Below are positions 32,164-37,318 of a stretch of 47,285 nt of DNA, piece by piece; the first letter of the stretch is position 1, and each line of letters begins with the position of its first letter. The DNA is taken from contig SHZR01000021.1 in assembly GCA_009692205.1 (NCBI GenBank), positions 1 to 47,285 of the forward strand. The letters are read 5' to 3'. The translations under genes were made by a program, and so were the position numbers. The DNA is from Gemmatimonadota bacterium (GTDB taxonomy: Bacteria > Gemmatimonadota > Gemmatimonadetes > Longimicrobiales > Gaopeijiaceae). The notes under the pieces are model-generated. The model saw nothing but the letters and a program-made list of their open reading frames with translations, searched no databases and was not told where the DNA came from.

Positions 32164-32418
32164 GTGAGCGCCAACATGCTCATTCACGTGATCGCCGTGG
32201 GATGTGCCGGGCCGCGAGCCCTCAGGGTCTGGTTCGACGACAACACGGTGAAGGACGTCGACCTCAGTAACGAGCTGTGGGGTGAGGTGTTCGAGCCCCT
32301 ACACGATCCTGATTTCTTCAAGCAGGTCTTCGTGAACGACGAGACCCGCACGGTCGAATGGCCCAATGGGGCGGACGTCGCGCCGACCTTCCTTTACGAG
32401 AAGGGTGTCGCTCACTGA
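32164..32418 (+). CDS. DUF2442 domain protein
   Basis: 84 residues with the DUF2442 pattern: RALRVWFDDNTVKDVDLSNELWGEVFEPLHDPDFFKQV in parts, then VEWPNGADVAPTFLYE. It starts at a GTG preceded by GGAG eight bases upstream; an ATG at 32176 is also possible. DUF2442 proteins are often partners of small DUF4160 proteins in putative toxin-antitoxin pairs; no DUF4160 gene is present. It converges on the mazF-like gene with overlapping ends. The solitary gene may be an orphan antitoxin. Confidence 0.87.
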   Translation: MSANMLIHVIAVGCAGPRALRVWFDDNTVKDVDLSNELWGEVFEPLHDPDFFKQVFVNDETRTVEWPNGADVAPTFLYEKGVAH

Positions 32419-33028: not shown

Positions 33029-33073
33029 ATTGATCGCCGGCGTCCCCCTGACCCTGCTTGCCGACCCTCCGTC

Positions 33074-33112
33074 TTCGGTGTACCTTCGGCATCGTATTCG
33101 GTTTTTATTCGG
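33074..33112 (+). promoter_or_regulatory. Four helically phased TTCGG motifs upstream of imuB
   Basis: TTCGG occurs at 33074, 33085, 33097 and 33108, i.e. at 11, 12 and 11 base spacing, so all four lie on one face of the helix. The last two are inside the longer direct repeat TATTCGGT. Direct-repeat operators of this kind are known for some LexA proteins (GTTC-N7-GTTC in Alphaproteobacteria), but this motif is not that consensus. A regulatory role is inference. Confidence 0.45.
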
Positions 33113-33116
33113 TGTG

Positions 33117-33181
33117 CGATCCCCGGCTCCGAAGCTGAGGGTGCGACGAGGGGTGGGGTGCCACTTCGGAGCCGGGGATCG
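33117..33181. repeat. Perfect 18-bp inverted repeat upstream of imuB
   Basis: CGATCCCCGGCTCCGAAG at 33117-33134 is matched exactly in reverse complement at 33164-33181, around a 29-base spacer. Transcribed, it would form a very stable stem-loop ending 35 bases before the imuB ATG. No T-run follows, so it is not a standard terminator. It could be an attenuator-like leader structure, a protein site, or the ends of a small inserted element. Confidence 0.8.
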
Positions 33182-33216
33182 CTGTCTCCTGCATCCTCGA
33201 ATCGTCCCGTTCCACT

Positions 33217-34641
33217 ATGTCCAAGGCCACATCGGGCGCGCATGGTGTTCCCACCCAACAAGGTCGAGGGTGGGTTCACAGCAGCACGTCCGAGGCATGG
33301 CCCCCTACCACACCCGACAGCAGCTGGGCCTCCGGCCCCGGATCGGGTACCGCGTTCCTCCCCACCACCCCACGCGCATCGACGGGGAGCTGGCAAGCGC
33401 TCTGCCTCTGGCTCCCCACCTTCGAGCTCCGGCTCGAGCTGGTCCGCTCCCCCGAGCTCGACAGCACGTCGGTCGCCCTGCTCGGGTCCGGCGAGAGCAC
33501 GCGCCGCACGATCTGGCAGGTCTCGGAGCGCGCATACGATGCTGGAGTTCGCCCCGGCCAGCTCGTCTCCCAGGCGATATCCCTGTGCACGTCGCTCACG
33601 CTCCTCGAGCCCGACCCCGCCCACTACGACGCCGCCGTGGACACGCTGCTCGAGGTCCTCGGCGAGGTCACACCGATCCTCGAGCCGGCCGGTCGCGGGC
33701 GCGTCTTCCTGGGAATGGACGGCCTCGGCCGGATCTTCGGCTCACCTCCTCGGCTGGTGGATCGCGCGCTCCGCTCGCTCTTCCGCGTATTTCCTGCTCC
33801 CTTGGTCGCGGCGACCCGGGCGGGCATGGCGCCCGGGAAATTCGGCGCCTGGGTCGCCGCAGCGTCGGCCCGGCCGGGCGAGCCCGTCATCGTATCCGAG
33901 GAAGATCTCCCTCGTTTTCTCGGCCGCTGCCCGGTGAGCACGCTTCCCGTCGACCCCCTCGTCGTCGAGCGCCTGGAGCGCCTCGGCATCCGGACGCTCG
34001 GGGAACTCGCGCGCTTCCCGGAGCCCTCACTCGTCGCCCAATTCGGCGAGGACGGGAGGAGCGCGCTCGCCTGGTCGACGGGGCGACGCATCGACCCCGT
34101 GCTGCCTTGGCATCGCCCCAGGCCCATCCGCGTATCGTTGGAGTTCTCGAGTCCGGTGGGGCTCACCGAGACGCTCCACGGAGCACTGGATCGCCTGGTC
34201 GAGCGCGCGCTCTCGCGTCCCGCGCGCCGCGGGCGCAGCGTGACCGGCGTACGGATGGGGGCGCACCTGGAGGGCGGTGGCTCCTGGTTCGTGGAGACGG
34301 TACTCCGTGAGCCCACCGCCACGCGCGAGCGCATCGCTGCGCCCCTGCGCGCGAAGATGGCGATCTCGCCGCCCCCGAAGGCCGTGCAGACGCTCCTGCT
34401 CGAGCTCACGCACTTCGGCCCCCCGAGTGCGCAGACCGAGCTCTTCGACCGCAAGGAGGGGAGCGGCCGCGAGGCGGGTGGGCACGAGCTGGCCCAGGGT
34501 GAGGTTCCGCCCTCGCTTCGTGACGCCGTGAAGGAGCTCAAGCTCCGACTCGGGGACTCGCCGCTCTACCGAGTGGTCGAAATCGACCCGTGGTCGCGGA
34601 TCCCCGAGCGACGCCACGCGCTCCTCAGTTTCGATCCATAG
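33217..34641 (+). CDS. imuB: ImuB-like Y-family DNA polymerase homolog (damage-tolerance protein)
   Basis: The recognisable core begins at about residue 60 (ALCLWLPTFELRLE); the first 59 residues (Ser/Thr/Pro-rich) may not be translated. It continues with ERAYDAGVRPGQLVSQA, GRVFLGMDGLGRIFG, a fingers/thumb segment and the helix-hairpin-helix LERLGIRTLGELARFP. The catalytic acidic motifs of Pol IV are lacking (no D-x-D-x-F at the start; GMDG where DE is expected), as in ImuB. QTELF at 406-410 resembles a beta-clamp-binding motif. In the known pathway ImuB links the clamp, ImuA and DnaE2; neither partner gene is adjacent here. 474 residues, TAG stop. Confidence 0.88.
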   Translation: MSKATSGAHGVPTQQGRGWVHSSTSEAWPPTTPDSSWASGPGSGTAFLPTTPRASTGSWQALCLWLPTFELRLELVRSPELDSTSVALLGSGESTRRTIWQVSERAYDAGVRPGQLVSQAISLCTSLTLLEPDPAHYDAAVDTLLEVLGEVTPILEPAGRGRVFLGMDGLGRIFGSPPRLVDRALRSLFRVFPAPLVAATRAGMAPGKFGAWVAAASARPGEPVIVSEEDLPRFLGRCPVSTLPVDPLVVERLERLGIRTLGELARFPEPSLVAQFGEDGRSALAWSTGRRIDPVLPWHRPRPIRVSLEFSSPVGLTETLHGALDRLVERALSRPARRGRSVTGVRMGAHLEGGGSWFVETVLREPTATRERIAAPLRAKMAISPPPKAVQTLLLELTHFGPPSAQTELFDRKEGSGREAGGHELAQGEVPPSLRDAVKELKLRLGDSPLYRVVEIDPWSRIPERRHALLSFDP

Positions 34642-34649
34642 TTCGACCC

Positions 34650-34928
34650 GTGAGCCCCGAGCGTCACGAACGCCCCAGGCTGAAACCGCTGGGGAAGCCG
34701 CTGGTCGTGACCGTGCGCACCGACGAGCACGGCGAGCCCGTCCACGTGCGACTCCCCGGCAAGACCGCACGCCGCGTCGAGGTCGTGCGCGAGCGCTGGC
34801 GTATCGACGACGAGTGGTGGCGCGAGCTCATCTCCCGGGAGTACTTGGCCGTCGTCCTCGACGATGGGCGCGCGCTCACGCTCTATCACGACCTGTCGGA
34901 CGGGCTCTGGTATGCGCAGAAAGAGTGA
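34650..34928 (+). CDS. DUF6504-like small protein linked to imuB
   Basis: 92 residues from a GTG nine bases after the imuB stop. The recognisable part is VRERWRIDDEWWRELISREYLAVVLDDG followed by LTLYHDLSDGLWYAQKE, matching the small family (DUF6504) encoded beside imuB and dnaE2 in several phyla. It is Arg/Trp-rich and has no enzymatic motif. Repeated linkage suggests a role in the mutasome, but this is inference from gene context. Confidence 0.75.
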   Translation: MSPERHERPRLKPLGKPLVVTVRTDEHGEPVHVRLPGKTARRVEVVRERWRIDDEWWRELISREYLAVVLDDGRALTLYHDLSDGLWYAQKE

Positions 34929-34986
34929 AGCTCGTCACCCGTGCCGAGAGCCTTGTTGGGGCCCGCGATTCGGACGACGATTGGGT

Positions 34987-36585
34987 ATGCGCCTTCCCTT
35001 GTTGCCCCCCGAAGTCGAGATCGAACTCGGGCTCGACGAGGCCGACGACGACGAGACCATCCGCCGAAAAGCGGCGCGCCGGATCGGCGTCAACCCGGCC
35101 GACCTCGCCGGGCTCACGCTCCGCAAACGGTCCATCGACGCGCGACGCGGCCGGGTGGTGTTCCGGCTCCTTCTCGAGGTGGACCCGGAGCCGCATGAGC
35201 TGGGCACGCCCCATCCCGTCGACGTGGATCGTCTCGGCCGGGTCATCGTCGTCGGAGACGGGCCCGCGGGGTTGTTCTGCGCCTACGAACTCGCGCGCCG
35301 CGGTATCGGCTGCACGGTCGTGGACCGTGGCAAGACGGTTCAGCCTCGGCGCCGCGACCTCCGCGGACTGAACCAGTTGGGTGTCGTCGACGCGGACAGC
35401 AACTACTGCTTTGGCGAGGGCGGAGCGGGCACGTACAGCGACGGCAAGCTCTACACGCGGTCCCACAAGCGCGGTGACTGCCGCGACGTGCTCGAGGTGC
35501 TGGCGCTGCACGGGGCGCCCGGGTCGATACTGACCGACGCCCGCCCCCACATCGGCAGCAACAAGCTACCCAGAGTCGTCACGGCGATCCGGGAGCGCCT
35601 GGAACGGCACGGGGTGACGTTCCGCTTCGGCGCCCGGGTCGTGGCGTTGCTGACACGGGACCAGGGGGCAACGCGTCATGTGACCGGTGTTCGACTCGAG
35701 TCCGGTGAGGAACTGGGGGCCGACGCGGTGGTGCTTGCTACGGGGCACTCGGCCCGTGACGTCTTTCACATGCTCCTCGACGCCGGCGTCCCGCTCCAGC
35801 CGAAGGCGTTCGCGCTAGGGGTTCGCATCGAGCACCCTCAGCCCCTCATCAATCGCGCCCAGTACGGCCCACGCGCCGAGCACCCGAAACTGCCCAACGC
35901 GGCTTACAAGTTGGCGCTCACCGAGTCAGGACGAGGCGTCTTCAGCTTCTGTATGTGCCCAGGTGGATTCATCGTCCCCGCGTCCACGAGCCCGGGCGAG
36001 CTCGTCCTCAACGGCATGAGTCTCTCCCGCCGCGACTCTCCTTATGCCAACTCGGGGCTGGTGGTCGCCATCGAGGTGGAGGATACGCTCCGAGCAGGCT
36101 TCAGCGGGCCGCTGGCGGGCCTCGAGCTACAGCGCCGCATTGAGGAGGGGGCGTGGCAAGCAGGAGGGGGCGGGCTGCGGGCTCCGGCCACCCGAGCCAC
36201 CGACTTCGTGGCCGGGCGGGCTTCGACCACCGTGCCCGCGACGAGCTACCAGCCGGGGCTGGCCGCCGGAAACGTCGGGGACGTGCTCGACCGGGTCGGA
36301 CTCGGACTCTCGGAACGGATACGCCGCGCGCTCCACGTCTTCGATAAACAGATACGCGGATACGTGAGCGAAGAAGCAGTCCTCGTCGGCGTCGAGTCGC
36401 GAACGAGCTCACCCGTGCGCGTGCCCAGAGACAAGGAACGACTCACGAGCCCAGATCTCGAGGGGCTCTACCCGTGCGGCGAGGGAGCCGGGTACGCGGG
36501 TGGCATCATGAGCGCCGCCATGGACGGCATCGGCGTTGCGCGTGCGATCGCGAACACCGTCGCGTCAGCTTGCAGATCTACGTGA
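34987..36585 (+). CDS. FAD-dependent dehydrogenase (COG2509-like)
   Basis: 532 residues. An N-terminal domain of about 85 residues (KAARRIGVNPADLAGLTLRK) precedes the dinucleotide-binding motif VIVVGDGPAGLFCAYELARRG at residues 86-106. Then come SNYCFGEGGAGTYSDGKLYTR, LATGHSARDVFHMLLDAGV and CMCPGGFIVPA. The C-terminal FAD segment is LYPCGEGAGYAGGIMSAAMDGIGVARAI. This matches the uncharacterised FAD-dependent dehydrogenase group COG2509; the substrate is unknown. The ATG at 34987 is the family start. It lies between the DUF6504-like gene and recX on the same strand. Confidence 0.9.
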   Translation: MRLPLLPPEVEIELGLDEADDDETIRRKAARRIGVNPADLAGLTLRKRSIDARRGRVVFRLLLEVDPEPHELGTPHPVDVDRLGRVIVVGDGPAGLFCAYELARRGIGCTVVDRGKTVQPRRRDLRGLNQLGVVDADSNYCFGEGGAGTYSDGKLYTRSHKRGDCRDVLEVLALHGAPGSILTDARPHIGSNKLPRVVTAIRERLERHGVTFRFGARVVALLTRDQGATRHVTGVRLESGEELGADAVVLATGHSARDVFHMLLDAGVPLQPKAFALGVRIEHPQPLINRAQYGPRAEHPKLPNAAYKLALTESGRGVFSFCMCPGGFIVPASTSPGELVLNGMSLSRRDSPYANSGLVVAIEVEDTLRAGFSGPLAGLELQRRIEEGAWQAGGGGLRAPATRATDFVAGRASTTVPATSYQPGLAAGNVGDVLDRVGLGLSERIRRALHVFDKQIRGYVSEEAVLVGVESRTSSPVRVPRDKERLTSPDLEGLYPCGEGAGYAGGIMSAAMDGIGVARAIANTVASACRST

Positions 36586-36592
36586 AATACTC

Positions 36593-37318
36593 ATGATTCT
36601 CGACATGCGAGCCACCTCACTGAGCTTGCCCACGCCCCGTATCACACGCGTCGAGCCCATCGGCCCTCGGGGGCTCACCGTCCGCGTGCACCTCGACGAG
36701 GGCGACCCCCTCGAGGTGATGCTCGAGGCGCTCGAGTTCAGCCGCCTGGGCTCCGGCGACGTGCTCTCGGCCGACGCGCGCACACGCCTCCTCGACGCCG
36801 ACGCCGACATCCGGGTCCGGGAGGCCGCGCTCACCCTGCTGTCCTACCGAGCCCGCACGCGGCAGGAGCTCAGACGGAAGCTCCGCGGCAAGAGATTCGA
36901 TCCCGCGCGCATCGACGCCTGCCTCGCGCGGCTCGAGGAGAGGGGACTGCTGTGTGATGCCGCCGTCGCGGCCGCGTTCGTGCGGGACCGGCTGCGGCTG
37001 CGGCCGAGCGGACGCACCAGGCTCGCGTCCGAGCTGCGCGCCAAGGGCGTCGAGGCCGAGGTCGCGCAGGAGACCATCGCGCTGGTCTTCGAGGACGAGG
37101 AGGTGAGCGACACGGACCTGGCCCGCGGGGCCGCCGAGGCGTGGCTCGCGAGACAGCCATCCCAGGTGTCGAGCGCGCTCGCGAGCCGGACACACACGCC
37201 CGCGAGCGGGAAGGCGAAGCGGCGCCTCTATGGGTACCTCACGCGCCGTGGGTTCCGCGGCGATGCCATGCACGCCGCCCTGGTGCACGCCGAGGCGCTC
37301 GCGGCCGAACGGCCATAG
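36593..37318 (+). CDS. recX: RecX-family regulator of RecA
   Basis: About 241 residues with three-helix RecX repeats: AALTLLSYRARTRQELRRKLRGK, IDACLARLEERGLLCDAAVAAAFVRDRL, GRTRLASELRAKGVEAEVAQE and KRRLYGYLTRRGFRGDAMHAAL. RecX binds and modulates RecA filaments. The start may be the ATG at 36593 or 36605. It is not next to recA here but follows imuB and the FAD gene, so several DNA-damage functions are clustered. Confidence 0.88.
   Translation: MILDMRATSLSLPTPRITRVEPIGPRGLTVRVHLDEGDPLEVMLEALEFSRLGSGDVLSADARTRLLDADADIRVREAALTLLSYRARTRQELRRKLRGKRFDPARIDACLARLEERGLLCDAAVAAAFVRDRLRLRPSGRTRLASELRAKGVEAEVAQETIALVFEDEEVSDTDLARGAAEAWLARQPSQVSSALASRTHTPASGKAKRRLYGYLTRRGFRGDAMHAALVHAEALAAERP

Follow-up and report, generated by a model that had tools for sequence, protein, structure and literature searches.

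A split imuB locus linked to recX in an imuA-less Gemmatimonadota genome, and its predicted SOS operator

The locus described here lies in a window of 47,285 nucleotides, the whole stretch of DNA analysed (positions 1-47,285 of contig SHZR01000021.1), from the Gemmatimonadota bacterium GCA_009692205.1, whose genome is 97.9% complete. Four genes follow each other on the plus strand with short gaps (Table 1): imuB, a small gene, a gene for a FAD-dependent dehydrogenase and recX, all of them as named in the initial annotation. The start then given for the locus, 33030, belongs to a spurious open reading frame in another frame and not to imuB, and the predicted operator does fall within 33030-33216. 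The start codon of imuB is uncertain, the sole in-frame upstream start being ATG 33217 and the conserved core beginning at 33385. A CCCACC-N-GGTGGG inverted repeat at about 33249-33276, within the low-complexity N-terminal extension of imuB, is kept in about ten relatives. Just 5' of the operon, at 32164-32418, there is a DUF2442 gene, which adjoins a possible antitoxin-like frame on the minus strand.

Table 1. Features of the split imuB locus, in positions of the window
Feature	Position	Strand	Remarks
SOS/LexA box 1 (putative)	33074..33089	+	TTCGGTGTACCTTCGG; TTCGG-N6-TTCGG direct repeat
SOS/LexA box 2 (putative)	33097..33112	+	TTCGGTTTTTATTCGG; equals the most frequent form of the motif
Leader hairpin	33116..33182	+	Perfect arms of 19 nt, at 33116-33134 and 33164-33182
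imuB, inactive Y-family polymerase scaffold (iPolY)	33217..34641	+	PF00817, 50.7 bits
Beta-clamp-binding motif QTELF of ImuB	34432..34446	+	Q and F unchanged throughout the family alignment
RecA-NT-like motif of ImuB (putative)	34504..34575	+	Residues 374-397, counted from 33385
Standalone ImuB-C ("DUF6504-like" gene)	34650..34928	+	GTG start; hhalign to the full-length ImuB C-terminus
FAD-dependent dehydrogenase (COG2509-like), passenger	34987..36585	+	PF21688, FAD-depend_C, 228 bits
recX, only copy found in the genome	36593..37318	+	RecX_HTH1/HTH2/HTH3 (Pfam)

ImuB is a Y-family protein by both sequence and fold, with the catalytic residues lost. It belongs to the Pfam family IMS, its profile matches DNA polymerase IV with an E-value of 1.3e-34, and a Foldseek search with its model gave a DinB/Dpo4 match with an E-value of about 1e-25. 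Alignment to the DinB of the same genome, which encodes one ImuB and one DinB in all, revealed that the acidic catalytic positions are replaced, D-C-D by W-L-P and S-V-D-E by G-R-G-R. The QTELF clamp-binding motif reported earlier is indeed present. After it, at the expected site, there is a strongly conserved, putative RecA-NT-like motif, which in the ImuB model forms a helix followed by a strand; when a RecA-NT profile from Gemmatimonadota was aligned to that of ImuB, this was the top placement, a weak match (P 0.024) for which the reversed control was empty. It has been demonstrated by experiment that the RecA-NT motif binds ImuA' (PMC11791113). In the same GTDB family, with 58 genomes, 45 carry this ImuB.

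The small gene alone gave no Pfam match. The label "DUF6504-like" that it had received is fair in that its homologues match DUF6504, but they do so weakly and below the cut-off (best E 0.0027). DUF6504 is also the best Pfam match, again a weak one, for the C-termini of full-length ImuB proteins. Comparison by hhalign of the small-gene profile with full-length ImuB C-termini, taken from canonical cassettes of the same family, aligned the whole gene with a probability of 95.9 and an E-value of 6.5e-9, and W, EWW, R, Y, G and W positions are invariant in the small gene across 23 relatives. The predicted structure is all-beta (pLDDT 87.6), in agreement with the novel beta-barrel described for ImuB-C in PMC12926913; relatives in the PDB were not found by sequence, and the best match by fold had an E-value of 0.7. 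As judged from the profile alignment and the model, the small gene is the C-terminal domain of ImuB, named as a standalone domain in PMC3765255, detached as a gene of its own. Since the small gene corresponds to ImuB-C and the Y-family ImuB has its catalytic positions replaced, the locus represents a split ImuB. The ImuB-C gene is found beside imuB in all 33 family loci inspected, often with a 4-nt ATGA-type overlap and with a single 3.7-kb interruption. Among the named loci, which come from Gemmatimonadota and Chloroflexota plus one MAG labelled Gammaproteobacteria, it is present in 73 of 80; four of the remaining seven are on cut contigs and three (L108, L116 and L123) show none.

The locus had been put forward as an undescribed functional unit for a separate kind of damage tolerance. 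The outline was right, as ImuB, paired with a small partner of its own in the absence of ImuA, makes a distinct unit that is kept across the family, but the kind was already known: a split ImuB (iPolY and a standalone ImuB-C) together with DnaE2 and RecA, without ImuA, has been published (available text of PMC6511836; PMC12926913), and the unit is therefore not undescribed. The reported absence of imuA holds genome-wide. The search of the split-imuB genomes with the ImuA model, including the genome of the window, matched only RecA, and an additional ImuA-specific match occurs in seven genomes, none of which has a split imuB. ImuA is thus found in none of the 45 split-imuB genomes and in 7 of the 13 others, a distribution with a hypergeometric probability of about 6e-6 when kinship is ignored. 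Nor is this imuB a paralogue of a complete cassette elsewhere, the genome having a single ImuB and no ImuA.

The absence of dnaE2, in turn, is true of the imuB locus only. The genome encodes one DnaE1 and one DnaE2, the latter near the end of contig C7 (C7:158122-161589; NF004225, 943 bits against a cut-off of 939). In relatives, dnaE2 as a rule shares the strand of imuB and lies 0-35 kb downstream of it; Chloroflexota, Palauibacter and a few others have it directly after ImuB-C. Collinearity of the window with a contig of the same genus extends up to 3.6 kb before the dnaE2 of that contig, and from this it is likely that imuB and dnaE2 are about 17 kb apart in the present genome; synteny fits a putative join between the window and C7, but neither end has sequence in common with the relative. 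A second, partial dnaE2 (L005:2590-3231; G000:C7:152664-153233), whose 190 residues correspond to 94-283 of DnaE2 with 92% identity, lies about 5 kb from the full gene and may be either a duplication or an assembly artefact.

The separation of the two genes gives some ground to the idea that ImuB and ImuB-C work with RecA and without DnaE2, as a regulator or a clamp-bound modulator of RecA, DnaE2 being a separate matter. Moreover, in one split-imuB genome that is 93% complete (G048) dnaE2 was not found. We regard this idea as improbable, because the same DnaE2 is present in the other 44 of the 45 split-imuB genomes, the genes form adjacent operons in several lineages, and they share the operator discussed below. 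Among the 13 other genomes of the family, this DnaE2 was found only in three fragmentary or incomplete ones. In a tree of split-associated and canonical sequences, built without reference DnaE2X or DnaE2B, the split-associated DnaE2s form one group apart from the canonical DnaE2s (support 99/98). This grouping also bears on whether the locus arose by decay of a canonical imuA-imuB-dnaE2 cassette, in which imuA was lost, ImuB was broken in two frames and dnaE2 drifted away. ImuB and ImuB-C combined do have the length and the domain order of a full ImuB. Nevertheless, decay is very unlikely: the split-associated DnaE2s are not nested among the canonical ones, the split extends from Gemmatimonadota to Chloroflexota and its proteins are highly conserved, the operators are intact, and other genomes of the same family hold canonical cassettes whose ImuB is 25% identical.

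Upstream of imuB there is a direct repeat, TTCGG-N6-TTCGG, with an 11-bp period and a T-rich spacer. Of 54 Gemmatimonadota loci, 53 have it 5' of imuB, compared with 23 of 530 random segments, when spacings of 9 to 13 were allowed. The genome of the window has only 13 exact matches (4 in the control), among them two at imuB, one that stops a few bases short of the dnaE2 start and two in tandem before lexA. Of the further matches, one (L172; G000:C7:52290) is located about 200 bp upstream of an mraZ-like gene, and another (L182; G000:C40:1553) precedes a divergent DinB/DfsB-like gene, both candidate members of the regulon. In relatives, dnaE2 carries the repeat upstream in 18 out of 20, and all 27 lexA loci parsed in the family have it too, in almost every case as a tandem pair. 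Upstream of recA there is a one-base variant in 20 of 21 cases, mostly with TTCGC or TTCGT as first half-site, and one perfect copy. The operator is thus common to lexA, the error-prone polymerase genes and, in this consistent variant form, recA. No box was found between ImuB-C and recX or in the gap between ImuB-C and dnaE2 of the operonic loci, as expected for one transcript. A Gram-positive-type LexA box was searched for as well; none was found in Gemmatimonadota and it is present only in Chloroflexota.

Very probably, therefore, judging from its distribution, TTCGG-N6-TTCGG is the LexA/SOS box of the phylum Gemmatimonadota. The deviation of the recA copy by one base would also suit a site for a regulator other than LexA that controls the same genes. 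We give this little chance, given that both tandem copies stand in the lexA promoter itself, between TTGCA-like -35 and -10-like sequences, in this family and in three further ones, and that the orthologous operon of Chloroflexota bears instead a box of the known LexA type, TAGAACATATGTTCTA, in 10 of 11 cases. In addition, the genes concerned are the core SOS set of lexA, recA and error-prone polymerases (PMC8565304). A literature search of open-licence papers found no published LexA motif for Gemmatimonadota. To our knowledge, the use of a TTCGG-type DNA switch by this phylum has not been reported.

Directly 3' of the boxes there is a hairpin followed by GTCTCC, which is kept in the recX-bearing clade. 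In an alignment of 15 relatives it has 13 pairs, four of them with compensatory changes, and the imuB leader gave no match in Rfam. Because its single-sequence energy is unremarkable, no more stable than that of shuffled sequences (z -1.44), the hairpin could also be a DNA element.

When neighbourhoods were compared across relatives, as had been suggested, the linkage of recX was kept in one clade and that of the FAD gene was not. The FAD gene stands between ImuB-C and recX in the genome of the window and in no relative. Since it occurs elsewhere in the genome in 4 of the 20 relatives searched and in neither of the same-genus genomes, the gene is, on its distribution, a passenger; this half of the initial proposal of "a passenger or a redox partner" stands, the redox partner finds no support, and a conserved partnership is rejected.

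Of the recX genes of the family, there is at most one copy per genome, and it is above the cut-off in 21 of 58 genomes, all with split imuB. Seventeen of these have recX beside ImuB-C, one has it immediately upstream of dnaE2 and three elsewhere, which places it in the imuB operon or next to dnaE2 in 18 of these 21 genomes. Among 28 named loci, 18 have a distance of at most 150 bp between ImuB-C and recX. In the genome of the window, the gene after recA is alaS, and no recX intervenes. Toxin-antitoxin-like cassettes (MazE/VapB and MazF-like, named from their translations only) lie between imuB-C and recX in L085, L086 and L091. Like the operator and the leader hairpin, a link of recX to the split-ImuB operon or to dnaE2 goes beyond the two papers on split mutasomes (available text of PMC6511836; PMC12926913).

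What this link means can be read in two ways. We hold it tentatively, and consider it rather doubtful, that RecX is a dedicated component of a mutasome that uses RecA and lacks ImuA, where it would strip RecA from filaments and hand it to ImuB from within the same SOS operon, under a so far undescribed Gemmatimonadota-wide LexA box; the analogy is with the switch from recombination to bypass reported for ImuA in Myxococcus (as cited in PMC11791113). The other reading, to which we give somewhat less than an even chance, is that imuB and imuB-C alone make up the functional unit, with recX and the FAD gene as bystanders. The linkage is limited to one clade, many split-imuB genomes show no recX, and the linkage may therefore reflect nothing more than inherited gene order; much of the family has recX unlinked or lacks it, and the toxin-antitoxin and FAD cassettes have been inserted between ImuB-C and recX. 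Against this, in many genera recX remains adjacent to ImuB-C, often with an overlap, as the other neighbours change, and one genome that has it away from imuB has it immediately upstream of dnaE2.

Taking these data together, we are fairly confident that the locus is under SOS induction and forms the split-ImuB arm of a mutasome without ImuA, a reading built on sequence comparison. LexA would keep the operon closed through the TTCGG-N6-TTCGG boxes. Upon DNA damage, imuB, imuB-C and recX would be produced together, and dnaE2, recA and lexA would be induced each from its own copy of the box. ImuB, predicted to be unable to polymerise, would bind the beta clamp through QTELF, and its putative RecA-NT-like motif would bind a RecA protomer that replaces ImuA. 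ImuB-C would dock DnaE2, which would then copy past the lesion, presumably with a mutagenic output. RecX would probably limit or trim RecA filaments, and in this way RecA could pass from recombination to the ImuB complex. The replacement of ImuA by RecA in split mutasomes has so far been a computational proposal, to which an operon uniting recX and split ImuB brings independent and directly testable genomic support. Moreover, the TTCGG repeat offers a predicted SOS operator for a whole, largely uncultured phylum, whose damage regulon could be listed from sequence.

According to these comparisons, the locus is best placed as a variant of the published split mutasome DnaE2-iPolY-ImuBC-RecA. A split ImuB with DnaE2 and without ImuA was proposed by Timinskas & Venclovas in 2019 (available text of PMC6511836), and the system was named DnaE2X-iPolY-ImuBC-RecA in their 2026 NAR survey (PMC12926913). 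The main text of that survey does not mention Gemmatimonadota, and RecX is mentioned neither there nor in the main text of PMC3765255. As far as the available descriptions of the Kyrpidia tusciae type go, the present locus shares with it the inactive Y-family protein, the standalone ImuB-C, a DnaE2 in the genome and the lack of ImuA, and it has a putative counterpart, a weak match, of the RecA-NT motif. It differs in that recX has joined the operon and that dnaE2 is displaced in this clade, yet under the same operator. With the canonical imuA-imuB-dnaE2 cassette it has in common the ImuB scaffold with its clamp motif, the ImuB-C domain, DnaE2 and LexA-type control, here predicted; unlike that cassette, it has no ImuA, ImuB is in two chains and dnaE2 is not adjacent. 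In the Geobacter lexA-imuB-C-polY operon, as cited in the available text of PMC6511836, a standalone ImuB-C is likewise paired with a Y-family gene and SOS-induced, but there the Y-family polymerase is active, whereas the ImuB described here is inactive, and DnaE2 is outside the operon. Finally, direct-repeat LexA boxes controlling lexA, recA and error-prone polymerases are known from Alphaproteobacteria (GTTC-N7-GTTC; PMC8565304) and Balneolaeota (PMC7739468). The predicted Gemmatimonadota box is of the same kind and has the 11-bp period and the TTC core of the alphaproteobacterial one, and differs from both in its TTCGG-N6-TTCGG sequence with a T-rich spacer.
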